Assembly (NCBI GenBank): GCA_903901425.1 | Contig: CAIURC010000113.1 | Coordinates: 1-54,070, forward strand | Direction of reading: 5' to 3' | From: an uncultured Spartobacteria bacterium | Lineage (GTDB): Bacteria > Verrucomicrobiota > Verrucomicrobiia > Chthoniobacterales > Chthoniobacteraceae | DNA length: 54,070 nt | Shown: positions 3,237-14,199 of the stretch, in pieces | Position numbering within the stretch: position 1 is the first letter of the stretch | Layout: each line of letters opens with the position of its first letter | Notes under the pieces: generated by a model | The model's database searches: none | What the model saw: only the letters and a program-made list of their open reading frames with translations | Told to the model about the DNA's origin: nothing | Program-made: the position numbers and the translations under genes

Positions 3237-5828
3237 ATGTTTATCTCCGCGGGTCTTGTGAATACCCGCGTCTCACCCACTCTCTTTTTCCTTCGAAATC
3301 AAACAGGCTATTTAAGAACAGTCCTCTGGTTGGTTGTGTTGGGATACGTGGGTGCGGCCGGGTTCAGCAGCGCGGCGGCAAAGGAGGCCCAGCCAGCGGG
3401 GGCGAGTCGTGTTGCGCCAAAGTCCAACCCCAGAAACGAGCAGGTTTGGGTGGTGGAATCGGTGGTCGGCAATATTGCCGAATTGGCGGGGTTTTCGGCC
3501 ACAGGGAAAGGGGCGGACCGTACCGTGGGGCCGGTGAGGGTGGAGAGCGATGGATTGATAGATAACAGCTATCAGTACAGAGTCATCGTTCCCCTGACGG
3601 GCGAGATCGAACCGTTGAAGGTTCAACTCAGGCTGACTGAATCCGTGTGGAGCGTTGGCAATTACACGGAGTTCGCGAGCCAAATGCTCAAACGACTGAA
3701 GGTGCGGGCCTCGGCGGAGCATCCCGGAGAGCATCCGATCCAGAAACTAACGAGTTATTCTGCGGACGACATTCAAAGTGAGAATCAGCGGATTTCGAGG
3801 TGGCTGTCCGAACATCCCGCTGATCCCGAGGGACATGAGCAGGCCGCATTGGTGATCGGCGTTTTGGGGATGAGAGAAAACTCGGGTGTCTTCTGGGACG
3901 CACGGCCATTCTGTAACCGGGCGACTGCGCATCTGGCTCTCGCTGAAGCCCTGCGGGCCGGTGACGCGCCCTCGGATTCCGCCCGGGTCGCTCGCCTGAT
4001 CGTTGGACTTCTGGACGACCGGAGAAAGCAATGTGACCAGTGGATTGGAGAACTGCGGTCAGCATCGGAGAAAAACGAACTGTTGAAGCCGTGGGTGATT
4101 GCTGCCTGCTTACGGAATGCGCGGGACTGGCGGGTGGCGCGGAGCGATGCCACCACGATGGAGCGCATCGAGTTGTTTCGCGCCCATTGCGAATCGATTG
4201 GTTCAAGCGTTGCCTGCAAAAAGCTTTTTGAGAGCAATCCGGCTGAGATTGCTGATTGGAGCCGAATCGTTTTCGAATACAGACCGAGCGTGGGCGATGG
4301 CCGTGCATTCCTGAATTTCGCGCTCGCCATGGAGCACCAGGAAATTGCGAAGGTCTTTCCGGAGATTTCTGGCAGCGAACGACCAGAGGACACCGCGTTG
4401 ATCCTGAATGTCCCGCCGGGCGGTTCGGTGCAACACCCGGCCAATGGGGCTGCTGCTATTGAAGTCATTGACCGCGGAACGTGGGCCCACTTTTTTCAAC
4501 GCCACCTGGCTCATGTGATCTCGCAAATGCACGAATTCGTGGCAGAGCAGTGGGGGGTTCCAGAGGAGGCGAAATCGTTCAAATCAGCGATGGACAAAAT
4601 GTTTGGTCAGCTGACCTTTTATCCTTTGGCCGAGATCCTCATGACCCCAATGAGCAATCCTCTCGATCGCGAGATGCAAGCTCGGCAGATGATCAGCGAT
4701 CATCCCGAATGGATCACAGTCTCGAATTGGGGGGCGGCGATCGCGCGTCAGAGCAGCGCTGAGCCGATCACACCCAGTATTTCTGACTGGTTTGAACCGG
4801 TATTGCTGACTGGGACGGCGTACGATTTCTACAGCCGCAATGTCAAATTGCCGCAGATGAGAAATCTGAGCTTGGAGAAAATAAAGGCACTGCATGAACT
4901 GGCGCCGACTCATATCGGAATCGCCACGCTTTATCTCCAGCGTCTTTACGGAAAGACCGCCAGTGTGAAGCAGATGCGAGAGATTCTGGGGGGCCTGCTT
5001 GAGTACAACGTCAGTGCGATGCGAAAACTCGCGGAGGTCGTGCGCAACGATCCGTCTCAGTATCTGCCGATCTCGAGCAAAATCGCTGAGCATGATCCTT
5101 ACGAATACCTCAGGCTGAGCAGTTACTTGCGGGCGCACCAAATGGAAAAGGAAGCCGTGGTGGCTTTTGAGACCGGCAAAGAGCGGGGCGCTGATCCTGT
5201 GGGTATCTCCAACAATTGTGCGTGGGTGGTAGACTACTATTTTGAAAATGGCGAGACGGCAAAGGCGGAGCGTCTGGCTGAGTTCGCTGCCGAGGTGTAT
5301 TCCTCGGCCGGCCTCGCGACCATGGGGCGACTCCAAGAGCGGATGGGAAAGCTGCCGGCTGCGGAAAGTTACTTCCTGAAGATTCAGGAGCGCTACAACG
5401 ACGACTCCTTGCTGATGGCCTTTTATCAGCGTCAGAATCTGGCGAACCCTGGTTCAACATACGCAGGAAAGCTCGAAGAACTCGTGAAGAAGGCGTTTCC
5501 ATCGGGTCTGCAGGAGGTGACCCTGGACAGTTTTTCCGGGGAACCGGCACGCGGAGTTCAGATTGTAAACAGCAGTCCTCTGGCGCGGGGATTCGGTTTG
5601 GAGGCTGGCACGTTGATCCTCGCTCTTGATGGTAAACGCACCGAGACCGAACGGCAGTATCTCTTAGTGCGCGCACTGACTGACTCGCCTGAGATGGACT
5701 TGATTGTTTATCAGGATGGTCAGTATCGGGAACTGCATGCAACAGCCCCCAATCGCACGCTCAACGTGCGCCTCGAGTCCTGGGAAACTTCAGGGTCGGA
5801 TTCTGGAGCACCACCAAAACGCCGCTGA
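3237..5828 (+). CDS. Large secreted protein with helical repeats and a C-terminal PDZ-like domain
   Basis: I do not recognise the family as a whole. The N-terminus (about residues 25-50) is a hydrophobic signal segment after a basic stretch, so the protein is probably exported. The middle is helical. Around residues 620-730 there are TPR-like pairs (ENGETAKAERLAEFA, MGKLPAAESYFLKIQERY). The last hundred residues fit a PDZ domain: RGVQIVNSSPLARGFGLEAG, followed by TLILALDGKRT and a final strand near MDLIVYQDG. PDZ domains of this kind bind peptide C-termini or act in periplasmic proteases, but no protease domain is visible. ATG 3237 was chosen; GTG 3234 is adjacent in frame, and neither has a strong ribosome-binding site. 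The gene stands alone between the glycosyltransferases and a converging operon. Confidence 0.6.
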   Translation: MFISAGLVNTRVSPTLFFLRNQTGYLRTVLWLVVLGYVGAAGFSSAAAKEAQPAGASRVAPKSNPRNEQVWVVESVVGNIAELAGFSATGKGADRTVGPVRVESDGLIDNSYQYRVIVPLTGEIEPLKVQLRLTESVWSVGNYTEFASQMLKRLKVRASAEHPGEHPIQKLTSYSADDIQSENQRISRWLSEHPADPEGHEQAALVIGVLGMRENSGVFWDARPFCNRATAHLALAEALRAGDAPSDSARVARLIVGLLDDRRKQCDQWIGELRSASEKNELLKPWVIAACLRNARDWRVARSDATTMERIELFRAHCESIGSSVACKKLFESNPAEIADWSRIVFEYRPSVGDGRAFLNFALAMEHQEIAKVFPEISGSERPEDTALILNVPPGGSVQHPANGAAAIEVIDRGTWAHFFQRHLAHVISQMHEFVAEQWGVPEEAKSFKSAMDKMFGQLTFYPLAEILMTPMSNPLDREMQARQMISDHPEWITVSNWGAAIARQSSAEPITPSISDWFEPVLLTGTAYDFYSRNVKLPQMRNLSLEKIKALHELAPTHIGIATLYLQRLYGKTASVKQMREILGGLLEYNVSAMRKLAEVVRNDPSQYLPISSKIAEHDPYEYLRLSSYLRAHQMEKEAVVAFETGKERGADPVGISNNCAWVVDYYFENGETAKAERLAEFAAEVYSSAGLATMGRLQERMGKLPAAESYFLKIQERYNDDSLLMAFYQRQNLANPGSTYAGKLEELVKKAFPSGLQEVTLDSFSGEPARGVQIVNSSPLARGFGLEAGTLILALDGKRTETERQYLLVRALTDSPEMDLIVYQDGQYRELHATAPNRTLNVRLESWETSGSDSGAPPKRR

Positions 5829-6120
5829 TTCGAATGGTGCGGCGAGTGCTGAAGTCACCGCTCGATCACCATAGTTTTGGACAAGCCAGACAAACCACGG
5901 CTCTCGAACTCTCAGGGAGATGCCCTTGCAGTTCGGCGTCCCTTTGAGTGTGTCCAGACGTCAACTCCGCCCCACCATCTAGAGCCGTTCTGACGCGCAG
6001 CCTTCGGATCCGCCCAACGATGGAGTTCAAATAAGGGCGTTTCCGGCGTCTCCTCGCCGCTCGCTATTTCCCAGCCTCGCTCCGATTTGACGCCAGTGTC
6101 GCTGAACTCCCGCCCTCCCC
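5829..6120. other. Convergent intergenic region
   Basis: These 292 bases separate two converging transcription units. I see no gene with family support and no hairpin followed by a T-run. One open frame on the minus strand extends from inside the neighbouring gene but has no recognisable domain. Confidence 0.4.
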
Positions 6121-7233
6121 TCACCGTTCCCAAGGCCGGTCCGGATTCACAAAATACCCGTCTAGCACGGCGGCCTGCCAGTCTTGGGCAGTGAGTTCCA
6201 GATCCCCAACGATCCGCCGGATCGCGAACCAGTCCGGATCGGGCAACTCGGCGCGGGGCACTTGGATCCGGACCCCGCCCCGACTGGTCACGGCCTCCAC
6301 CAGAAAAGGCGCATCCCCGCCCGGCGCCCACCCCAGGGTTACTTGGGCCTCGTCGGCGCCGGCCCGGACCAGTTCCAGAGCCAGCTGCCGGGCCCGGAAC
6401 GCACCGCATTTGTCCACCTTGTGCGGATCCTTGCCGGAGAGCGCTCCGCCACCAATCGGAATGCCTGGACCGTAATGGTCGATCACCAGTTTTTTACCGG
6501 AAAGACCGTTGTCCCCTTCGGGCCCGCCGACCGCAAATTCACCGGCCCCGTTGAGCAGGAGTTTCCGGGGATCAAAGGTTCTGAACACTCCATCGAGCCC
6601 GCGTTCCTCGAGCCGTTTCAGCAGACGCTGGAGGAGTGGAACCAGAAGCCGGTGCTGGGACTCGCTCTGGAGTTTCGGAATATGGAGAACGCTGAACACC
6701 AACTGCTTCCATGCGACACGCCCAGAAGCCGGATCCGTTTCCAACGAAACGAGGAGTTTGAAGTCCGGCCCGAATGTCCCCCAGAGAACGGCATCGGAAC
6801 GAAGAGCCCCATGGAGCGCCTTTCCGAGTTCCCACGCAGTCCAGTGTGCGGCAGGCAGATGGTGGGCGTTTCGGCAGGCGTAGCCGGTCACAATATTCTG
6901 GTCGTCTGAAAAGGGCCGGATATCGGCCTCCTCCGCAGGCAGTTCCTCCTCGCAGAGGTCGGCGCTGATCCTCAGGCGGTCAGGGTCTGGGATCCAGAAG
7001 CCGCCGTACCCTGCGTTCCGGTAGACGCTCCGGACAATCTGCTCGATATCCAAAGGGCGCGCTCCGGATGCGATCCGGCCGTCGATAAAGACGGCGTCCC
7101 GGTGGACGGCGACCTCGACCCCGACCAAGCTGTCGGGACGGTCCCGGAGAGCGGCGGTGACGATTCCCTCGGCAATCGCATCGGCGAGGCGGTCGGGGTG
7201 ACCAGGCGAAACGTATTCGGCGTGTGGGTTCAT
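6121..7233 (-). CDS. Divergent methionine adenosyltransferase (MetK-like)
   Basis: The 370-residue protein aligns along the whole length of S-adenosylmethionine synthetase, which makes SAM from methionine and ATP. Recognisable blocks are GHPDRLADAI (11-20), DDQNIVTGYA (110-119), PDFK with the conserved lysine (149), GGPEGDNGLSGKK (226-238), GGGALSGKDPHKVDK (251-265) and a final DGYF...PWE. Catalytic acids and lysines of the central and C-terminal blocks are kept. Two N-terminal signatures differ from typical MetK: SEGHPDK is here SPGHPDR, and TYGGMARHGGG is HYGPGIPIGGG. It is the last gene of a minus-strand operon, three bases after the metallopeptidase-VWA gene, which is not the usual setting for housekeeping metK. 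It may be an active synthetase, or a SAM/ATP-binding partner of the MoxR-VWA module. The family call is firm; the role is inferred. Confidence 0.88.
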   Translation of the reverse strand: MNPHAEYVSPGHPDRLADAIAEGIVTAALRDRPDSLVGVEVAVHRDAVFIDGRIASGARPLDIEQIVRSVYRNAGYGGFWIPDPDRLRISADLCEEELPAEEADIRPFSDDQNIVTGYACRNAHHLPAAHWTAWELGKALHGALRSDAVLWGTFGPDFKLLVSLETDPASGRVAWKQLVFSVLHIPKLQSESQHRLLVPLLQRLLKRLEERGLDGVFRTFDPRKLLLNGAGEFAVGGPEGDNGLSGKKLVIDHYGPGIPIGGGALSGKDPHKVDKCGAFRARQLALELVRAGADEAQVTLGWAPGGDAPFLVEAVTSRGGVRIQVPRAELPDPDWFAIRRIVGDLELTAQDWQAAVLDGYFVNPDRPWER

Positions 7234-7236
7234 AAA

Positions 7237-8796
7237 TCAAAAACTGGGGAGTCGGACAATCTCGCGCACCCAGCCCTCCAGGTACTTGGTCTGGTAGGGG
7301 GCGGTGATCGCGGCAACCACCCGGGTTTTTTTCAGTCCACAGACCAGATCCTGAGGCGGCACTCCCACGTCTCCATCGGTCACAATCAGCATCACACGCG
7401 GCCGGCGCGGCAGCGGGATCCCCGCGAAATGCTCGAGGACGGCGCGGATGGAAGTTCCCCCGGTGTTTTGAAACGGTATGGTTGTGAGATTTGTTCCCTT
7501 GGCCTCGCTGACCACCGTGGAAAACCCGAATACCTTGATCTCGCCGCGCCGGAACGGCTCACGACAGACTGCGGTCAGGGCCGGCAGGTAAGTCTCCATG
7601 GATCCGCTGATGTCCAAGTACAGGTGGACAATCGGCACGGGCTCCGACCGGACCCGTTTTTCCCGGGTGCTGACCCGGTAGATCAAGGGCGCAGCCCCCG
7701 TCAGCGCGCGCAGAGCCAAGACCCGCCGGTCCCGAGGATCCGGGAGAACGGTTTCCTGAATCCGCTCGGCCACCGCCAACTGCGGCCGGTAGTTTGCGGG
7801 ACCGCGTCCCTGATGGATTCCACATTTGCGCAGCAGACTCGTGAAAGCTTTCTGCAGAGCCGCCTTCGGTTTTTTTTGGGACTCGAGAAAGTAGGTTTTT
7901 TGCGGTTTACCTTCGTCCCGCCCGGCAATGCGCCGAGGCGGCGGAGGCCAACCGTCCACCAGGTCCCGGACGACATCCCTCAGAAGCCGGTTCTCGGGCG
8001 TTTCGTCGCCGTGGTTTCCGAGCAGGACTGGGGTGCCCCCATTTTTTGGAAGCAAACCAAGCCGGATTTTCTGACTGACAAGTTCCCCCTCCTGCCCACC
8101 GGAAAACTCGCTGTCCCCCACATCCTCGGTTTGGCTGCCGCCACCGGATGTTCCGGTCTCGGGATTGTCCCCGGGAGTTGCGTGGTCGACTTCGCGGGGG
8201 GTGGGATCCGGGCTGTCTGAGCTGGAAACCGATTTGCGGAGCAACTCGTAGATGTCGAGGTAGGTCACGGTGCCGTCCTCGGGACCGTACAGGAGGCGAA
8301 ACGCCTTCTGTTCTGCGGGAGGGAGCGGGGCGATGGCTTCCTCAAAGGAACCGGGCCAGCCCGGAGGCGGGCGGAGGAGTCGGTTGGGGAACTCGTCGAA
8401 CGAGTTTAGGGAAGTCAACAGATGAACGCCCACGGACCGGCCGACGGTGCGGGCCAGCATCGCATTAATCACGGCGTCGAACACGATGTTGTCGACCTCT
8501 GTGCCCCGGGTGAAAAGCCGGGTATGGCCCAGGATCACGTGATGGAGTTCATGCAGGATCAACAGAAAAAGGTCGCCATCCGCCTGGCAGTATTCCTCAA
8601 CGAACTGCCGGTTGAGCAGGAGCCGGGGCGTAGTGCTGCACTCCACGGCAGCCGAGTTGACGGCGTCGCTCCATTCAATGTCCAGAAGCCCAAACAGTTT
8701 CTCCATCTGGTAGGAGGCGGCCGGGATCACGTTGAAAATGCGCTCCCGAATGGCTCGGGCTTCCTGGGTGCGGGGTTGGCGGCTGAGGAGGTTCAT
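7237..8796 (-). CDS. Metallopeptidase-like and VWA domain fusion protein
   Basis: The N-terminal part carries HELHHVILGH (residues 82-91), a zincin-type HExxH with a further histidine. This matches the putative metallopeptidase domain that precedes VWA in DUF2201-type proteins. A low-complexity acidic linker spans about residues 185-235. The C-terminal 125 residues are a VWA domain with an intact MIDAS: DISGS near 396, then TGGTS and VTDGD. Proteins of this type act with MoxR AAA+ ATPases, where the ATPase drives remodelling and the VWA domain recruits partners through a metal ion. The MoxR gene lies two genes upstream in the same operon. The start overlaps the stop of the upstream gene in an ATGA arrangement, so translation is coupled. 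The peptidase activity is a prediction from the motif only. Confidence 0.85.
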   Translation of the reverse strand: MNLLSRQPRTQEARAIRERIFNVIPAASYQMEKLFGLLDIEWSDAVNSAAVECSTTPRLLLNRQFVEEYCQADGDLFLLILHELHHVILGHTRLFTRGTEVDNIVFDAVINAMLARTVGRSVGVHLLTSLNSFDEFPNRLLRPPPGWPGSFEEAIAPLPPAEQKAFRLLYGPEDGTVTYLDIYELLRKSVSSSDSPDPTPREVDHATPGDNPETGTSGGGSQTEDVGDSEFSGGQEGELVSQKIRLGLLPKNGGTPVLLGNHGDETPENRLLRDVVRDLVDGWPPPPRRIAGRDEGKPQKTYFLESQKKPKAALQKAFTSLLRKCGIHQGRGPANYRPQLAVAERIQETVLPDPRDRRVLALRALTGAAPLIYRVSTREKRVRSEPVPIVHLYLDISGSMETYLPALTAVCREPFRRGEIKVFGFSTVVSEAKGTNLTTIPFQNTGGTSIRAVLEHFAGIPLPRRPRVMLIVTDGDVGVPPQDLVCGLKKTRVVAAITAPYQTKYLEGWVREIVRLPSF

Positions 8797-9242
8797 AGAG
8801 TGATCAACGGGTCATCGAACAGGACGTGGCTCACCAGAAGCCGGTCCCAGGTCAGCTCCGGGACACGACGCGCGAGGTAAAGGGGGCCCGCGCACCGGGA
8901 CAGCACCCCGGCACACAAACGGGGGTCCTTGCACAAGACATGCGGCACGGGATCTCCCCCCTCTCCGAAAGGGTTCCCTGCCAAGCTGCCAATCAGGAAA
9001 TCCGCCTCCCAATCGGGAAAAACGGGCTGTCCTGCGCATTCAAAAAACGAATCTGGAACCGGAAAAACCCTGAGAATGGTGTCTCTGAGCGCGCCAATGC
9101 TCGGCAAGGGACCTTGGAACTCGGGCCGTTGCAGGGTGGTGCCGCAGAATTTGTGAAGCGCCCATGCGAGAGAGAATACCACCCCCTGGGCCGAAACGAT
9201 CCCGCATCGGGACTGAAACTCGGTCCGCGGCGGCGCGCTCAT
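8793..9242 (-). CDS. Hypothetical protein between MoxR and VWA genes
   Basis: I do not recognise this 149-residue protein. It is probably cytoplasmic, with no signal peptide or membrane segment. Five cysteines are present, at ...RCG, KFCG, FECAG, VLCKD..LCAG and RCAG, without a clear zinc-ribbon spacing. The conserved-looking core includes PDWEADFLIGSLAG and LTWDRLLVSHVLFDDP. ATG 9242 is used; GTG 9257 is an in-frame alternative. Its stop overlaps the start of the metallopeptidase-VWA gene by four bases, and it follows the MoxR gene by about 55 bases. Its position suggests it is an adaptor or substrate-specific part of the same complex. That is inference from context only. Confidence 0.65.
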   Translation of the reverse strand: MSAPPRTEFQSRCGIVSAQGVVFSLAWALHKFCGTTLQRPEFQGPLPSIGALRDTILRVFPVPDSFFECAGQPVFPDWEADFLIGSLAGNPFGEGGDPVPHVLCKDPRLCAGVLSRCAGPLYLARRVPELTWDRLLVSHVLFDDPLITL

Positions 9243-9297
9243 GTTGTTGTATCTCACAGCCTATGATGTGCGAAAAAGCCCATGGTGCAAACCCGGC

Positions 9298-10860
9298 TCA
9301 TTCCTTTCCGAGCCCGAACTGTTCCCAGAGCTTGTGGAACACTTTGATCAGCTCGGCCGGAGTGATCTCCCGGAGGCCGTCGGGGAGAAACGCGTTGAGG
9401 AGGTTGCGCGTGTAGGCATCGCGCGGCCCCGAGCCCAGACCGCTGCAGAGGTTGGCGACTTCCCGACACCGGCTGAGGGCGTGTCCGTAGACGCGATGCG
9501 TCACTGTCGCCGGGGTCAGCACCCGGTTCAACTGCGAAGCCAGCGTCTCGGCAGCCGTGGCGGCGATCCGTTTCGAGGACCGGAGCCGGAGGTAGATCAC
9601 CAGGGCAACGGCAGCGCTCAGTTCCTGGCAGCGCTGTGAGGAAACCGCTTCAAGAACCAAGCTCGAAAAATCAGCCTCGCTCAGGGAAAACCCAGGCCGC
9701 AGGGCGTGGAGAACCCGTTTGAGCGGGTCCGTGATTCCGAGCAACTCTTTCCAAGGATCGTCCTCCCGCAGCCCTGCAATCCCCCACGCGTGTCGGTGCA
9801 ACGCCAGCAACGCCACGCGGTCGACGCCCCCTGCCGCCAGCCCCGGATGCCCATACGCAAGCGCAAGGAACAACGTGTTCTCCAGAGTCGGTTTGGGGGA
9901 TGGGTCGCCCGACAGTGAGAAAAGCGTGAGCCGCGCCGCGTGGATTCCGAGTGCGGTCCGGAACAGCGTGGAAAGCCGCCGGCTCGAGAAGCGGGTGCCG
10001 GCCGTCTGGAGCTGGGATTCAAGGGCGATGAAATAGGCGGTCAGGTCCGGCGGATGGGTGCAGAAATCGGCGTATAAAGCCCGCGTCTGAGCCACCACTT
10101 GGGCCACGTCCACCGGGAACTCGTGCCGGCCCCGGAACTGATCGAGAAGCAGCACCCCTTTTTCCTCCTTGGATAGATCGCACCAGTCGGGCACCTCGAT
10201 GAGAAACCCGAACCGGTCTGCCAGCGCGGGATCCAGCGGTTCGGCTCCCAGATAGACCTCGCTGGAATCCGCCTCATCGGAGGGGGGCGGATTCATGGCG
10301 GCCCAGCGGTACTGGAGTTTTTCGAGCCGCACCCCTTGAACCCGGCGCTCGTGGATGATGGAAAAGAGTTTGTTTTGGAGGTCGGGCCGTGTGCGGTTGA
10401 GTTCGTCGATGAAGACCACTTCGGCATCCCAGATCGCCGTGGGAGTGCTGATGTAATGGAGCCGGGTCTGGGTGGAGTCCGGCACTGGGATCCCGACCAG
10501 ATCATCGTAATTGATCAGGGAGGCGTTGTAGAACCGGTAGTTGAGTTCGAGGGCCTGGGCCAGACGCTCCAAAAGGAAGCTCTTGGCTGTGCCGTGTTTG
10601 CCGATCAAGAGGAGGGGTTCTTCCGTGGCCAACGCCGCAAGCAGCACCGGCTCGAGGTGGTCCCAGCCCAGAAGCCCAAGGGGCTTGGTGAGGTGCACCG
10701 AGTGCACCTTGGCCGAGGGACTCGACGCAGGGAGGGGTTCTTCGGCCGGAGATGGACTGGATGGACTGGATGGACTGGATGGACTGGCGGCACTGGCGGG
10801 CGGGGCGGGCGGGGCGGAGACCGCTGCGGGGAGGGCTGTTTTGGTGGCTTTGCGGGGCAT
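9298..10860 (-). CDS. MoxR-family AAA+ ATPase
   Basis: The 520-residue protein starts with a Pro/Ser/Ala-rich, probably disordered tail (residues 1-50) that includes SPS repeats coded by a 9-bp tandem repeat. The AAA+ core follows: Walker A GKHGTAKS (87-94), Walker B VVFIDELNR (148-156), a sensor-1 AAMNPP (187-192) and a DPALADRFGF arginine-finger/RF motif. This is the MoxR/RavA subgroup, chaperone-like ATPases that work with VWA proteins to assemble or activate targets. The long C-terminal region (about 260-520) is helical and gives no further motif. The gene sits 15 bases downstream of a small arm-domain-like gene and upstream of the VWA fusion, so the two likely form the motor and VWA arms of one complex. 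Confidence 0.88.
   Translation of the reverse strand: MPRKATKTALPAAVSAPPAPPASAASPSSPSSPSSPSPAEEPLPASSPSAKVHSVHLTKPLGLLGWDHLEPVLLAALATEEPLLLIGKHGTAKSFLLERLAQALELNYRFYNASLINYDDLVGIPVPDSTQTRLHYISTPTAIWDAEVVFIDELNRTRPDLQNKLFSIIHERRVQGVRLEKLQYRWAAMNPPPSDEADSSEVYLGAEPLDPALADRFGFLIEVPDWCDLSKEEKGVLLLDQFRGRHEFPVDVAQVVAQTRALYADFCTHPPDLTAYFIALESQLQTAGTRFSSRRLSTLFRTALGIHAARLTLFSLSGDPSPKPTLENTLFLALAYGHPGLAAGGVDRVALLALHRHAWGIAGLREDDPWKELLGITDPLKRVLHALRPGFSLSEADFSSLVLEAVSSQRCQELSAAVALVIYLRLRSSKRIAATAAETLASQLNRVLTPATVTHRVYGHALSRCREVANLCSGLGSGPRDAYTRNLLNAFLPDGLREITPAELIKVFHKLWEQFGLGKE
10751..10786 (+). repeat. Four tandem copies of a 9-bp unit inside the MoxR gene
   Basis: The unit GATGGACTG is repeated four times without change. 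On the coding strand it gives SPS triplets in the disordered N-terminal tail of the MoxR protein. It is followed by a second G-rich simple stretch. The unit length is a multiple of three, so copy-number change would alter tail length without a frameshift. Confidence 0.9.
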
Positions 10861-10875
10861 GGCGTCTGGGGGGGC

Positions 10876-11085
10876 TTAGGCGGCAATCCGGGCTTCGAGC
10901 AGCAGGGAGTCCCGCAGGAAACGCGCGGTGGCGGCATCCCGCGTGTGGAGGCTGAGTCGGACCCTGCGTTTGGTGTAGTCCGGCAGATGCTCGGTGTAAT
11001 GGCACCACCAAGTCCCGTGGTTGTTCCAGAGGTGGTGGAGAGGATTTGCGGTTTCCCGGATGACCGGAGTCGGCTTGGCGTTCAT
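10876..11085 (-). CDS. Small protein resembling an integrase arm-type DNA-binding domain
   Basis: This 69-residue protein is the first gene of the operon. Its sequence has TWWCHYTEHLPDYTKRRVRL and then SLHTRDAATARFLRDSLLLE. That is the beta-strand, basic turn and 'slgT.d..eAr..rd' helix seen in the N-terminal arm-binding domain of phage-type tyrosine recombinases. No catalytic recombinase domain follows, so the domain stands alone. It could act as a DNA-binding regulator or as a degenerate relic. ATG 11085 has no clear ribosome-binding site. It lies 38 bases after the leader hairpin. The MoxR gene starts 15 bases after its stop, so the two are cotranscribed. The arm-domain resemblance is read by eye and moderate. 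Confidence 0.55.
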   Translation of the reverse strand: MNAKPTPVIRETANPLHHLWNNHGTWWCHYTEHLPDYTKRRVRLSLHTRDAATARFLRDSLLLEARIAA

Positions 11086-11123: not shown

Positions 11124-11159
11124 AACAAAAAGGCGCCCGTCCTTATCAGGAGAGGCGCC
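11124..11159 (-). terminator. Intrinsic terminator inside the 5' leader of the MoxR/MetK operon
   Basis: On the minus strand GGCGCC pairs with GGCGCC (6 bp). Inside lies TCCT/AGGA around a GATA tetraloop, separated from the outer stem by a 2x2 internal loop. A U-run (TTTTTGTT) follows at once. The only gene upstream on this side is on the other strand, so the hairpin cannot end an upstream gene's transcript. Its place 38 bases before the first start codon makes it an attenuator candidate. On the plus strand no T-run follows. Confidence 0.65.
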
Positions 11160-11364
11160 GTTGAAAGCCTGGAGAGATTTTTGTTCGGAGGATTTCTCCC
11201 CTCCGCACATCGACCATTCTGGTCAGCCACCGTGGGATTTCTCCGTCCCCGGTTGGCAGCACCCGGCTTTGAGCCAGATGCATTCCTGATGCTGGTGGGG
11301 AGGCTAACAGGTCCGTCTGTGGGCAGGCAACCGGAAGTTGTGTCATAAAACCGTGGGTGACCAC
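11160..11364 (-). promoter_or_regulatory. Structured leader region upstream of the MoxR/MetK operon
   Basis: Read on the minus strand, this stretch can form several short hairpins: GGCT/AGCC at 11265-11275, GACCA/TGGTC at 11212-11224 and GGAGG/CCTCC at 11187-11204. The word GGAGAAATCC occurs twice, in two of the presumed loops or stems. A 72-codon frame (GTG 11364 or ATG 11346 to TGA 11146-11148) spans it and stops inside the loop of the terminator hairpin, so it could be a leader peptide. I cannot match it to a known riboswitch class. The region also contains the 5' side of the divergent permease gene. Confidence 0.4.
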
Positions 11365-11453
11365 TTGGCCCCTGACTTACCGTGGGATCCACCCCGGGCG
11401 ACCCGCCCCTTTTTCTCCGTGCGCACCGGTTTGAGCCTGTTAGGGATGTCGGG

Positions 11454-12776
11454 GTGTCAGTCCCCGAAAAACGCGTTGTTTCGCTGCCCACCGCCACGGG
11501 GTTGGTGATTGCCAACATGGTGGGCACGGGGGTGTTTACGAGCCTTGGATTCCAGATCCCGGGGCTCCCCTCAGCGTGGGTGATTCTCACCCTGTGGCTG
11601 GTGGGCGGGCTCTGCTCGCTTTTTGGAGCCCTGGCTTACGGGGAACTCGCGGCGGCCCTGCCCAGGTCCGGAGGCGAATACCATTACCTAAATGCCGCCT
11701 ATCATCCGGCCGTGGGGTTCATGTCGGGCTGGGTGTCGCTTCTGGTGGGGTTTTCGGCTCCGGTGGCACTCGCAGCCATGGCGTTCGGCCGCTATTTTCA
11801 CACTCTGCTGCCCGGCGTTTCCCCCGAACTCGCAGCCCAGACGGTCGTGCTGGGGGTGACAGTCATCCACCTCGCCGGCGGGCGTGCGGGCAGCCTCTTC
11901 CAAAATGCAGCCACAGGCGCAAAAATTTTACTCATCCTGGTGCTGATCGGAGCCGGCTGGCTGCTGACGCCGGGCTCCCAGACGCCTTTTGCATTCAACC
12001 CGGGTGAAACCCGGCTCCTCGCATCGCCAGACTTTGCCGTGAGCCTGATCTACGTGATGTACGCGTACACCGGGTGGAACGCGTCCACTTACATCGCCGG
12101 CGAAATCCGCGATCCCCAGCGCAACCTGCCGCTCTCGGTTCTGCTCGGAACGGTGTTCGTGACCCTTCTGTACATCGGACTCAACACCACTTTCCTCAGA
12201 GCGGCCCCGCTCTCCGAGCTTTCGGGAAAACTTGAGGTCGGCCAGGTCGCCGCTGCCCACATTTTTGGCCCAACCGGCGGCCGGATCATGTCCGGCCTGA
12301 TCTGCGCGGGCCTGCTTTCCTCGCTCTCCGCCATGACCTGGGTCGGGCCGCGTGTCACGGTTGCGGTGGCTCGCGACTTTCCGCTGCTTGCCCCGCTCGG
12401 TCGCAAAAACGGGCGGGATGTCCCGGTGGCGGCCATGGGCCTTCAAACGGCCATGGTACTTCTGCTCCTGGCCACGCGCAGTTTTGAGACGGTGCTGACC
12501 TACCTCCAGTGCGCCCTTAGCCTTTGCTCCCTGCTCACCGTGGCAGCCGTGTTTGTGCTCCGCGTCCGCCAACCCGACCTGCCGCGCCCGTCCAAAACTT
12601 GGGGCTACCCGTTCACGCCCGCCGTGTTTGTGGGAGTGAACATCTGGATGCTTTGGCACGTCCTCAAGGCACACCCCCGCGAATCTCTAATCGGTCTGGC
12701 CACGCTGATTGCCGGACTCGCGTTCTTTGCCCTGCGCAAGCCCAACCAACCCAGAGATTCAGGAAGCCCAGGGTAA
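11454..12776 (+). CDS. APC-family amino acid permease
   Basis: About twelve hydrophobic segments are visible. The first carries the APC signature (TATGLVIANMVGTGVFTSLG), with the glycine-rich unwound helix that binds the amino acid backbone. A GGEYHYLNAAYHP loop follows helix 3, as in LAT/YfnA-type transporters. The protein should import amino acids by proton or sodium symport or by exchange; the substrate is not predictable. GTG 11454 is chosen because AGGG lies a suitable distance upstream and homology starts just after; GTG 11382 would add 24 residues. It is divergent from the MoxR/MetK operon, so a shared control region is possible, and methionine as substrate would be of interest there, though nothing in the sequence shows it. 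Confidence 0.85.
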   Translation: MSVPEKRVVSLPTATGLVIANMVGTGVFTSLGFQIPGLPSAWVILTLWLVGGLCSLFGALAYGELAAALPRSGGEYHYLNAAYHPAVGFMSGWVSLLVGFSAPVALAAMAFGRYFHTLLPGVSPELAAQTVVLGVTVIHLAGGRAGSLFQNAATGAKILLILVLIGAGWLLTPGSQTPFAFNPGETRLLASPDFAVSLIYVMYAYTGWNASTYIAGEIRDPQRNLPLSVLLGTVFVTLLYIGLNTTFLRAAPLSELSGKLEVGQVAAAHIFGPTGGRIMSGLICAGLLSSLSAMTWVGPRVTVAVARDFPLLAPLGRKNGRDVPVAAMGLQTAMVLLLLATRSFETVLTYLQCALSLCSLLTVAAVFVLRVRQPDLPRPSKTWGYPFTPAVFVGVNIWMLWHVLKAHPRESLIGLATLIAGLAFFALRKPNQPRDSGSPG

Positions 12777-12810: not shown

Positions 12811-14199
12811 TCAGAGTTCCACCGCGACCCCAGGTTCGGGAACAATCACCTGGGTCTCTGGCAAGTCCACAGAAACTTGGCTCCGGAACCATTCCACACC
12901 GGCAGGGTCTCCGTGCACAAGCACGAGCTTTTTGGGTCGGATTTTTCGGATGTACTCCAAGATACTCTCCCGGGAGGCGTGTCCGCTCAGGTTGAACTTT
13001 TCCACGCCGCACTTGAGTTTCGCCCCCAGTTCACCCCACTCCACCCGCTCTCCCGGAGCCGCAGCCCGGATTTTGCCGGCGGGCGACTCCGGATCCGCGT
13101 ACCCGACAAAAAAGAGGGCGTGCCGGGGTTCGCCCAGAACCAACCGGGCAACGGTGTGGGAAAGGGTGTTCTCGGTCATCATCCCGCTCGAGAGCGCGTA
13201 GATCCGCCCGGATTTCATGGGAAGCGTCTGGGCGTTCTGGCCGCTGACCACAAAGGGAGCGACCTCATCCAGAAGCTGGAGCCGGGGATGCTGGCGCACG
13301 GTCTGCCCTGCAAGCCGGTCATGGATTTCCGTCAACTTGGCCCCGAGTCCCCCGATGTAAATGGGGCAGTCCCGGCGCAGCCGGCCTTCCCGCCGGAACC
13401 GGTGAAAGAGCGCCAGAAGTTCCTGAGTTTTTCCCAGAGCAAACAGCGGCATCAGAATTGCGCCTCCGCCCTCGAACACCTTCTGAAGGGCGTCCCGGAG
13501 CCGGTTTTCCTCGGCCGCCCGGGTGAATCCGGGTTCGATCCCGCGGTCGCCCCGGGTGGTTTCAATCACCAACACATCCACGCCCTCGGTGGGAAATGCG
13601 GCGCCCTGCATCAGGGTCTGGTCCTCAAAATTCACGTCCCCGGTATAGAGCAAGGTCCTGCCCCCGTGCCGGAAGAGGGTTCCCACCGAGCCCAAAATGT
13701 GGCCGGCATCATAAAACTCGAAGCTGAGTTCGTCGGGTTCGCCTCCCGAGGGCCCCAACCGTTCACCGTCCACACTGAAAAATGTGTGGAGCGGCACTGG
13801 CATCCAACGGCGCCACTGGACCTCCAGTTCCCGGTGGGTGAAGAGCGGGTAATCCACCACGCCCGCCTCTTCCCGGCGCCGCATCATGACGTTCACGGAA
13901 TTGTGAAGCATCGCGTCCCCCAAGGCGCGGGTGGCCTCCGTCAAAAACACCCGGGCTTCGGGATGCCTCCGGCAGACCACGGGGAGGGCCCCGATGTGAT
14001 CTTGGTGCGCGTGGGAAACGATCACCGCGTTGAGGTTCTGGTTGCCGATTGCCTCCAAGACGGGCAGGGCATCGAGCCCTTCCTCCCTTGGGTGAAGTCC
14101 GCAGTCGAGCAGAACCCTTTTTCCGCCGGCCTCGAGGAGGTAGGAGTTGGCTCCAATCTCAGTCCTGCGTGTGAGGTTGGTAAATACAAACGCACCCAT
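12811..14199 (-). CDS. Beta-CASP metallo-beta-lactamase RNase (CPSF73/YSH1-like)
   Basis: The N-terminal metallo-beta-lactamase core has SHAHQDHIGALP (HxHxDH), a later DAGHILGS histidine, and YTGDVNFEDQTL with the bridging aspartate. The beta-CASP insert and the C-terminal part follow, including SSGMM (motif B region), FVGYADPESPAGK, LSGHA and VHGDP (motif C histidine). This is the layout of RNA-processing nucleases of the CPSF73/RNase J superfamily, closer to the archaeal/eukaryotic-like type than to RNase J. It probably cleaves RNA in the cytoplasm. ATG 14199 is chosen because GGAGG lies nine bases upstream and the family starts there. In-frame extension to 14289 would overlap the divergent gene's promoter. 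The next gene is divergent. Confidence 0.88.
   Translation of the reverse strand: MGAFVFTNLTRRTEIGANSYLLEAGGKRVLLDCGLHPREEGLDALPVLEAIGNQNLNAVIVSHAHQDHIGALPVVCRRHPEARVFLTEATRALGDAMLHNSVNVMMRRREEAGVVDYPLFTHRELEVQWRRWMPVPLHTFFSVDGERLGPSGGEPDELSFEFYDAGHILGSVGTLFRHGGRTLLYTGDVNFEDQTLMQGAAFPTEGVDVLVIETTRGDRGIEPGFTRAAEENRLRDALQKVFEGGGAILMPLFALGKTQELLALFHRFRREGRLRRDCPIYIGGLGAKLTEIHDRLAGQTVRQHPRLQLLDEVAPFVVSGQNAQTLPMKSGRIYALSSGMMTENTLSHTVARLVLGEPRHALFFVGYADPESPAGKIRAAAPGERVEWGELGAKLKCGVEKFNLSGHASRESILEYIRKIRPKKLVLVHGDPAGVEWFRSQVSVDLPETQVIVPEPGVAVEL

Follow-up and report, generated by a model that had tools for sequence, protein, structure and literature searches.

A SAM-riboswitch-headed cassette joining a MoxR–VWA pair to a SAM-synthetase-family gene in Spartobacteria and other bacteria

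Introduction

What would a MoxR-type AAA+ ATPase and a VWA-domain protein do in one operon with a relative of MetK, the S-adenosylmethionine (SAM) synthetase? The question is raised by five genes on contig CAIURC010000113.1 of an uncultured Spartobacteria bacterium (assembly GCA_903901425.1), which we analysed as a whole 54,070-nt stretch, hereafter the window (other loci carry L numbers, and genomes G numbers). A first-pass annotation, made from the window sequence, had described these genes and proposed for them a "SAM-linked maturation" or "stress/defence" system. In our reading, the riboswitch at the head of the operon and the conserved gene set are best explained if the cassette is a self-contained SAM-homeostasis unit, whose client and reaction are suggested by gene order.

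Results

A SAM riboswitch at the head of the operon

An open reading frame check found all five minus-strand genes of window 6121-11085 where the first-pass annotation had placed them, confirming both its coordinates and the close junctions: in operon order, 15 nt, 40 nt (55 nt if counted from an internal ATG of the third gene, P3), -4 nt and 3 nt. The gene annotated as encoding an unknown "149-residue" protein, P3, is also real, although that length starts at the internal ATG; a 154-aa form from a GTG is more likely, because most homologues conserve the residues just before the internal ATG ([LY]HNM). Absent from the annotation, and just outside its coordinates, are a SAM riboswitch and a terminator upstream of the operon. 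The features are, in operon order:

11170-11297, minus strand: SAM-I/IV riboswitch aptamer (RF01725); 45.6 bits by cmscan against a gathering score of 41.1, and 95.5 bits with our own model R1, of which this aptamer is a training row
11127-11159, minus strand: intrinsic terminator, the likely expression platform; stem at 11159-11132 and then a T run, between the aptamer and the first gene, present in the minimum free energy (MFE) fold
10876-11085, minus strand: stand-alone integrase-arm-like small protein, 69 aa, an optional member; DUF6538 at 17.9 bits, below the cut-off of 27
9298-10860, minus strand: MoxR-type AAA+ ATPase, 520 aa; AAA_5 (57.6 bits) and bpMoxR (33.9 bits), both above cut-off, and AAA_3; RavA in the PDB
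8793-9257, minus strand: P3, an orphan protein of adaptor size, 154 aa; no Pfam match for the window protein and no PDB match
7237-8796, minus strand: zincin-like domain and C-terminal VWA domain with a metal ion-dependent adhesion site (MIDAS), 519 aa; weak VWA_CoxE match, with HExxH, GH and MIDAS conserved
6121-7233, minus strand: divergent MetK-like protein, 370 aa; three SAM-synthetase (methionine adenosyltransferase, MAT) Pfam domains, and TIGR01034 at 157.8 bits

The aptamer, which has the conserved core of RF01725, was placed by Rfam on the strand of the operon, between the operon and a divergent gene at 11382. The terminator (GGCGCC...GGCGCC-TTTTT) ends ~40 nt before the first start codon; it was missed by a general scanner, its stem being interrupted, and was found by a script and in the MFE fold. 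An aptamer followed by a terminator is the anatomy of a SAM-repressed OFF switch, as in SAM-I riboswitches, and the window riboswitch is probably such a switch.

The same arrangement recurs in other genomes, where cassettes take two forms: type A, with the MetK-like gene 3′ as in the window, and type B, with another kind of MetK gene 5′ (see below). Rfam searches of carrier genomes placed more SAM-I/IV or SAM aptamers upstream of other cassette copies, and R1, a covariance model built from 16 sites, gave 27 matches at E<1e-4 in 548 kb, of which 26 were directly upstream of a cassette (11 of these 26 not in the model) and one, in L034, preceded a non-cassette gene. With a further site in L079 (the other half of the L053 cassette, outside the R1 search and taken from the Rfam search of carrier genomes), a riboswitch heads 27 of the 28 type A loci in which upstream sequence can be seen; 16 of these 27 riboswitches trained R1. 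Rfam's own models reach their gathering score at 12 of the 27 sites, the others being below it or outside the cmscan set. At 12 of 30 sites an intrinsic terminator comes directly after the aptamer, where shuffled sequences would give 0.48 (the count covers 30 of the 32 riboswitch sites, L118 and L120 being outside the set).

Three observations concern the surroundings of these riboswitches. The divergent gene beside the window riboswitch (11382-12776, plus strand) is amino-acid-permease-like by eye and may share the intergenic region. A search with RF00162 and RF01725 found only one other SAM riboswitch in the window genome (G000:C25:12233-12402, or L078 6234-6403), ahead of a gene that by eye resembles threonine synthase. 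Locus L034 holds a second SAM-I/IV riboswitch (13459-13600, minus strand), upstream of a small gene that is ThiS/MoaD-like by eye.

A constant four-gene set in several phyla

A scan of 288 genomes of the phylum, window genome included, returned above-canonical MetK-like matches only in the window genome, G177 and G279; identity is 58% and 53% for the latter two, and each gene adjoins a VWA gene. Sampling one genome per species yielded 39 loci, of which 37 are true relatives; L070 and L071, from Patescibacteria, with 30-31% identity and no cassette, were set aside. By metagenome-assembled genome (MAG) label, which may be wrong, carriers are mostly Verrucomicrobiota-type, Kiritimatiellae or Lentisphaerae, with three Planctomycetota, three Proteobacteria and one each of Deltaproteobacteria, Clostridia, Bacilli, Spirochaetales and Candidatus Uhrbacteria. 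In a sample of 387 genomes from the phylum, four have a close VWA homologue and three more only a distant VWA match. The cassette is thus rare and patchily spread over several phyla (genomes reached more than once were counted once: G177 is L041, G279 is L053/L079 and G372 is L034).

Of 37 loci that allow the test, 36 have the VWA gene next to the MetK-like one; the tally is the window together with 35 of 36 others, L066 being the failure and L057 having broken frames, while L059, cut off by a contig end, is not among the 37. MoxR and P3 precede the VWA gene wherever the contig reaches, except in the broken frames of L057. The region upstream of MoxR is in view in 27 type A loci, window included; 15 of these have an arm-like gene, and in the other 12 none was found. 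The gene also occurs in six type B loci. The constant set is therefore four genes: as a block these do co-occur in other genomes, so that the refuting outcome named in the first-pass annotation did not arise, though the arm gene does not always accompany them. Across 25 loci, pairwise distances of MetK-like proteins correlate with those of VWA proteins (r=0.942) and of MoxR (r=0.957), values reached by none of 2000 permutations; only loci with all three proteins at full length entered, and L047, L057, L068 and L069 were taken out by hand.

Patchy spread over several phyla, together with a MoxR that resembles bpMoxR and a riboswitch that could sense SAM loss, is also what might be seen in a stress or defence module that SAM depletion arms, for instance through phage SAM-degrading enzymes. 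Single loci lie near genes that are restriction-type by eye (L057), and a LexA/UmuD-like gene, also recognised by eye, is found within 10 kb in 4 of 37 loci (L033, L034, L046 and L056), the most frequent other family among the larger clusters listed. Against such a module, PADLOC gave only weak, partial AAA matches for MoxR and nothing for the VWA protein or for the window MetK-like, P3 and arm proteins, and a known anti-phage system was rejected on these grounds. No variable effector was seen, and neighbours were varied, among the flanks listed. The VWA protein had no match in phage and plasmid collections and MetK-like was not found in viral contigs, and a viral element was likewise rejected. 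The stress/defence half of the original proposal is thus unsupported, and we consider it very unlikely.

An intact MoxR–VWA pair with an orphan partner

The Walker A and B residues of MoxR are conserved among homologues, and RavA is its only PDB relative by sequence. The VWA protein combines a conserved HExxH (30/30) and a following GH with two near-invariant cysteines and a complete MIDAS, so that the intact Walker motifs, HELHH motif and MIDAS reported earlier all stand. With a MoxR and a neighbouring VWA protein that has a full MIDAS, the operon has the sequence hallmarks of a MoxR–VWA chaperone pair. Among Pfam models, VWA_CoxE is matched by the most VWA members (22 of 25 at E<=0.1); DUF2201_N, a putative metallopeptidase family, is matched by 19 of 25 at E<=0.1 (best 2.6e-5), the window protein scoring 11.2 bits against a cut-off of 23.2. 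No solved structure was matched by a sequence profile of the zincin-VWA family. In an AlphaFold2 model (mean predicted local distance difference test score, pLDDT, of 76), only the VWA half finds structural matches, to the MDN1/Rea1 MIDAS domain and a NorQD chain among other VWA domains.

P3 carries an N-terminal motif, [LY]HNMSxPPR[ST], in an alignment of the window and 26 loci (27 rows; L057, with broken frames and no P3 found, L047, with a broken MoxR frame and a weak P3 match, and L061, with an ambiguous start, were left out). Its AlphaFold2 model is confident (pLDDT 86), and the fold has no PDB match. The conserved methionine is not strict, being leucine in L049 and threonine in L068, and is hence ruled out as an obligatory adenosylation site.

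A MetK-like protein outside the housekeeping clade

Whether the last gene is simply a housekeeping metK can be settled from its score, its genome and its tree position. Its central MAT domain scores 25.5 bits, under the Pfam cut-off of 29, and its score for TIGR01034, the NCBIfam model of canonical metK, is below the cut-off of 309.4. A canonical metK, 33% identical to MetK-like, lies elsewhere in the window genome, on a different contig, and all 10 carrier genomes checked (each at least 90% complete; G227, which has a distant VWA–MoxR pair only, was not in this set) also have a housekeeping MetK. Overall, a housekeeping-type MetK stands beside MetK-like in 32 of 37 carrier genomes; in the L037 genome the full-length canonical-type copy is the in-operon one, and a further partial copy is present. 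In a tree made by a quick method (SH-aLRT support only, midpoint root and so in effect unrooted, long-branch warnings), MetK-like rows fall on one side of a fully supported branch as a group of their own; five near-duplicate clade rows, fragments <300 aa, L076 and the in-operon MetK of L037 were left out. A housekeeping metK is ruled out by this group and by the separate canonical metK of carriers. The divergence asserted in the first-pass annotation, outside the housekeeping clade, therefore holds, and MetK-like is not the genome's only metK.

The alignment of 36 of the 38 MetK-like proteins (fragments included; L068 and L069 fell under a 150-bit cut, and the in-operon MetK row of L037 was ignored) shows the ATP and metal residues kept and the methionine pocket altered. 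Residues H12, D14, K159, D241, K248, K268, K272 and D274, at the positions of the catalytic His14 and the ATP, triphosphate and metal ligands (E. coli MetK numbering, in part assumed by us), are unchanged in every row or in every row but one; the canonical Arg244 is a lysine. Glu55 is Arg in 35 of 35 rows, a stretch beside the gating loop that holds Gln98 and Ile102 in canonical MetK is missing from 36 of 36, and new invariant residues such as H130 and N242 appear (35 of 35 each); Glu55 is kept in all 42 non-clade MetKs of the tree. According to the sections drawn on here, Glu55 helps to bind the methionine amino group, and Gln98 and Ile102 bind its carboxyl group and side chain (PMC3853416, PMC1282579); one source assigns all three to the partner subunit (PMC3853416), the other places Gln98 and Asp238 together on one subunit, with Glu55 coming from its partner (PMC1282579). 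The first of these also describes archaeal MATs that bind methionine with other residues and are still active (PMC3853416), so that inactivity of MetK-like cannot be concluded.

One reading of these changes is that MetK-like pairs with housekeeping MetK, whose side of the dimer interface would provide the residues that MetK-like lacks; a second is that it has a new acceptor. Under the latter, MetK-like would be an active adenosyltransferase for deaminated or blocked methionine, or for methionine in a peptide, matured or fed by MoxR, P3 and the VWA protein. The retained ATP, triphosphate and metal residues and the uniformly altered methionine pocket, with its new invariant positions, speak for such an enzyme. 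We nevertheless regard it as unlikely: SAM-riboswitch control and the canonical pocket of type B point to ordinary SAM, the archaeal enzymes manage with other methionine-binding residues, and the loose conservation of the P3 methionine argues against P3 as an obligatory substrate.

Type B cassettes, hybrids and outliers

A distant branch of VWA proteins in Opitutaceae, in 6 of 150 sampled genomes, defines type B, with the order arm-MetK-MoxR-P3′-VWA (the VWA gene of G525 lies on more than one contig and has internal stops). P3′ was recognised by eye from an MGPP start and an LGLCG-type C-terminal motif. HExxH and MIDAS are kept in 5 of 5 type B VWA proteins checked, and the riboswitch model matches before 4 of the 6 cassettes. 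Type B MetKs have a canonical pocket and form a fully supported tree group of their own (7 rows); in the cassettes compared they share 73-74% identity with one another, and 56-58% with housekeeping MetKs. Two hybrids, L033 and L037, have both a type B-like MetK at the 5′ end and a MetK-like gene at the 3′ end, and L094 retains a remnant of a MetK-like C-terminus after the VWA gene. In L037 the in-operon canonical-type MetK (5486-6589) reads GNPD, not GHPD, its catalytic His being replaced by Asn. As MetK-like is 3′ in type A, MetK is 5′ in type B and both occur in hybrids, the MoxR-P3-VWA block keeps a SAM-synthetase-family gene despite the changed kind of MetK.

The same data bear on the possibility that MetK-like is a non-catalytic subunit that senses SAM or ATP and gates the MoxR/zincin-VWA machine, the true client being another methionine-pathway protein or a metal site. 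An altered methionine pocket beside conserved zincin and MIDAS sites would suit this reading, as would the NorQD chain among the structural matches, NorQD being needed, according to the part of the source consulted, for iron insertion into nitric oxide reductase (PMC9976466). In L041, a gene that is MetA-like by eye follows the cassette. Retention of the ATP, triphosphate and metal residues, however, would not be expected if the protein were a sensor only, the corresponding gene of type B is an ordinary-looking MetK, and among the neighbours listed no gene recurs that would be an obvious second client; we regard this reading as unlikely.

Several further loci touch on these genes. The MetA-like gene of L041 (11171-12067; homoserine acyltransferase-like) lies directly after the cassette. 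L095 (G227, 4463-7698) has a more distant VWA–MoxR pair in another gene order. The IMG/VR contig L123 carries a riboswitch (74.3 bits), then MoxR (43% identity), P3 and the front of a VWA gene (3264-4316), which stops before the VWA domain beside phage-tail-like genes, possibly through prophage insertion into a cassette; lacking that domain, the contig cannot tell whether a MetK follows. A third MetK type, in L072, L073, L074 and L075, sits in prophage-like loci of rumen Kiritimatiellae beside genes that are DNA-methylase-like by eye; these are phage-borne SAM synthetases forming one tree group, and their prophage-like setting rules them out as cassette members. A gene similar to this third type, in L076, has its own SAM riboswitch (G312:C152).

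Discussion

We put at roughly even chances the proposal that the cassette is a riboswitch-controlled activase or assembly machine for SAM synthetase, comparable to CbbQO in its action on Rubisco. A fall in SAM would keep the terminator from forming, and the cassette would be expressed; a MoxR hexamer would then use the VWA protein as its adaptor, whose MIDAS would hold an acidic client side chain, with P3 as co-adaptor, and ATP hydrolysis by MoxR would remodel, assemble or un-inhibit a SAM synthetase, either cassette-encoded or housekeeping. The type A MetK-like chain would most likely work with housekeeping MetK as a mixed oligomer, or be a docking subunit of the machine, because it keeps the ATP and metal residues without the two methionine-binding elements. 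As described in part of one source, CbbQO clears inhibitors from Rubisco, to which its VWA protein attaches by the MIDAS at an acidic residue, and RavA relieves ppGpp inhibition of lysine decarboxylase (PMC4660213); by analogy with CbbQO, the client here would be a SAM synthetase. Of the "SAM-linked maturation" first proposed, the SAM-linked part is strong, given the riboswitch and the MetK-family gene in both cassette forms, and the maturation part is plausible only, from the intact MoxR–VWA pair. The accompanying idea that MetK-like provides or senses SAM is a conjecture about a protein with an altered methionine pocket.

Known systems share parts of this composition. CbbQ–CbbO, compared by composition and not by sequence, likewise encodes a MoxR AAA+ protein and a VWA/MIDAS protein with a metabolic enzyme, and the cassette differs in its SAM-synthetase-family partner, the zincin-like half of its VWA protein, the extra orphan P3 and its SAM-riboswitch control. 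NorQ–NorD, CoxD–CoxE and RavA–ViaA are also MoxR and VWA pairs, and a NorQD chain, VWA_CoxE and RavA are among the cassette's matches; they serve other clients, and we know of none with a MetK, a P3 or a SAM riboswitch. Relative to canonical MetK, MetK-like has the three-domain family architecture and the His14/Lys/Asp core, yet forms its own group with Glu55 changed to Arg and the gating loop deleted. The MoxR–vWA ternary conflict systems (Kaur et al. 2020, PMC7159879) similarly combine MoxR, VWA and a further component, and the window MoxR falls in the Pfam family bpMoxR, whereas the cassette proteins have a fixed domain architecture without a Pfam match to VMAP, iSTAND, FtsH or beta-propeller families (Pfam for the cassette proteins, flanking genes by eye only); the main text of that paper contains no MetK, SAM synthetase or DUF2201. 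In the open-access literature we found no paper joining a SAM riboswitch with MoxR; papers on MoxR and S-adenosylmethionine synthetase describe no such system, and the matches listed contain no description of the gene set or of an ATP-driven SAM-synthetase helper, judged in both cases by title and start of abstract. We know of no earlier description of an ATP-driven helper for SAM synthetase.

Several observations weigh against a SAM-synthetase activase. Both the interaction and the client are conjectured from gene order, and the conserved zincin site, for which we know of no counterpart in CbbQO, is given no role by this reading. The pocket changes of MetK-like could mean a different substrate or no catalysis. 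The MetKs of types A and B differ in kind, so a single client chemistry is not obvious, and the GNPD of L037 may be a sequencing difference or an inactivation. Five MAGs (L042, L043, L050, L060 and L066; completeness unstated) show no canonical MetK, which incompleteness could explain. The set also has exceptions: L066 is without a VWA gene; L065 has no nearby riboswitch, only a weak match of 24.6 bits 4 kb away; and two type B cassettes were counted as riboswitch-negative, L093 with a rightly placed but chance-level Rfam match (28.7 bits, E 1.6) and L121 with no match and a partial core by eye. The P3 profile has no match in type B, P3′ being identified by eye only, and the L095 pair has no MetK and no P3 or riboswitch match nearby, so the wider MoxR–VWA family is not tied to MetK. 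Carriers are few, and the function is therefore accessory. The window MoxR scores above the cut-off (27) for bpMoxR, which takes its name from candidate conflict systems, and the LexA/UmuD-like neighbours hint at stress regulation.

In a variant that we judge quite improbable, the AAA+ machine would be dedicated to SAM synthesis while the type A MetK-like protein has left free methionine, adenosylating instead another sulfur compound or a protein-held methionine opened by MoxR–VWA. If so, a protein-held or other sulfur acceptor would mean new adenosylation chemistry under SAM-riboswitch control. If instead the cassette is a SAM-synthetase activase or assembly machine, then SAM supply in some bacteria would be served by its own AAA+ machine for repair or assembly, as Rubisco carbon fixation is, and a MetK clade, the orphan P3 family and a zincin-VWA family would gain a function. 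The riboswitch would give the induction condition, and type B, with its ordinary-looking MetK, offers a system that is directly testable in vitro.

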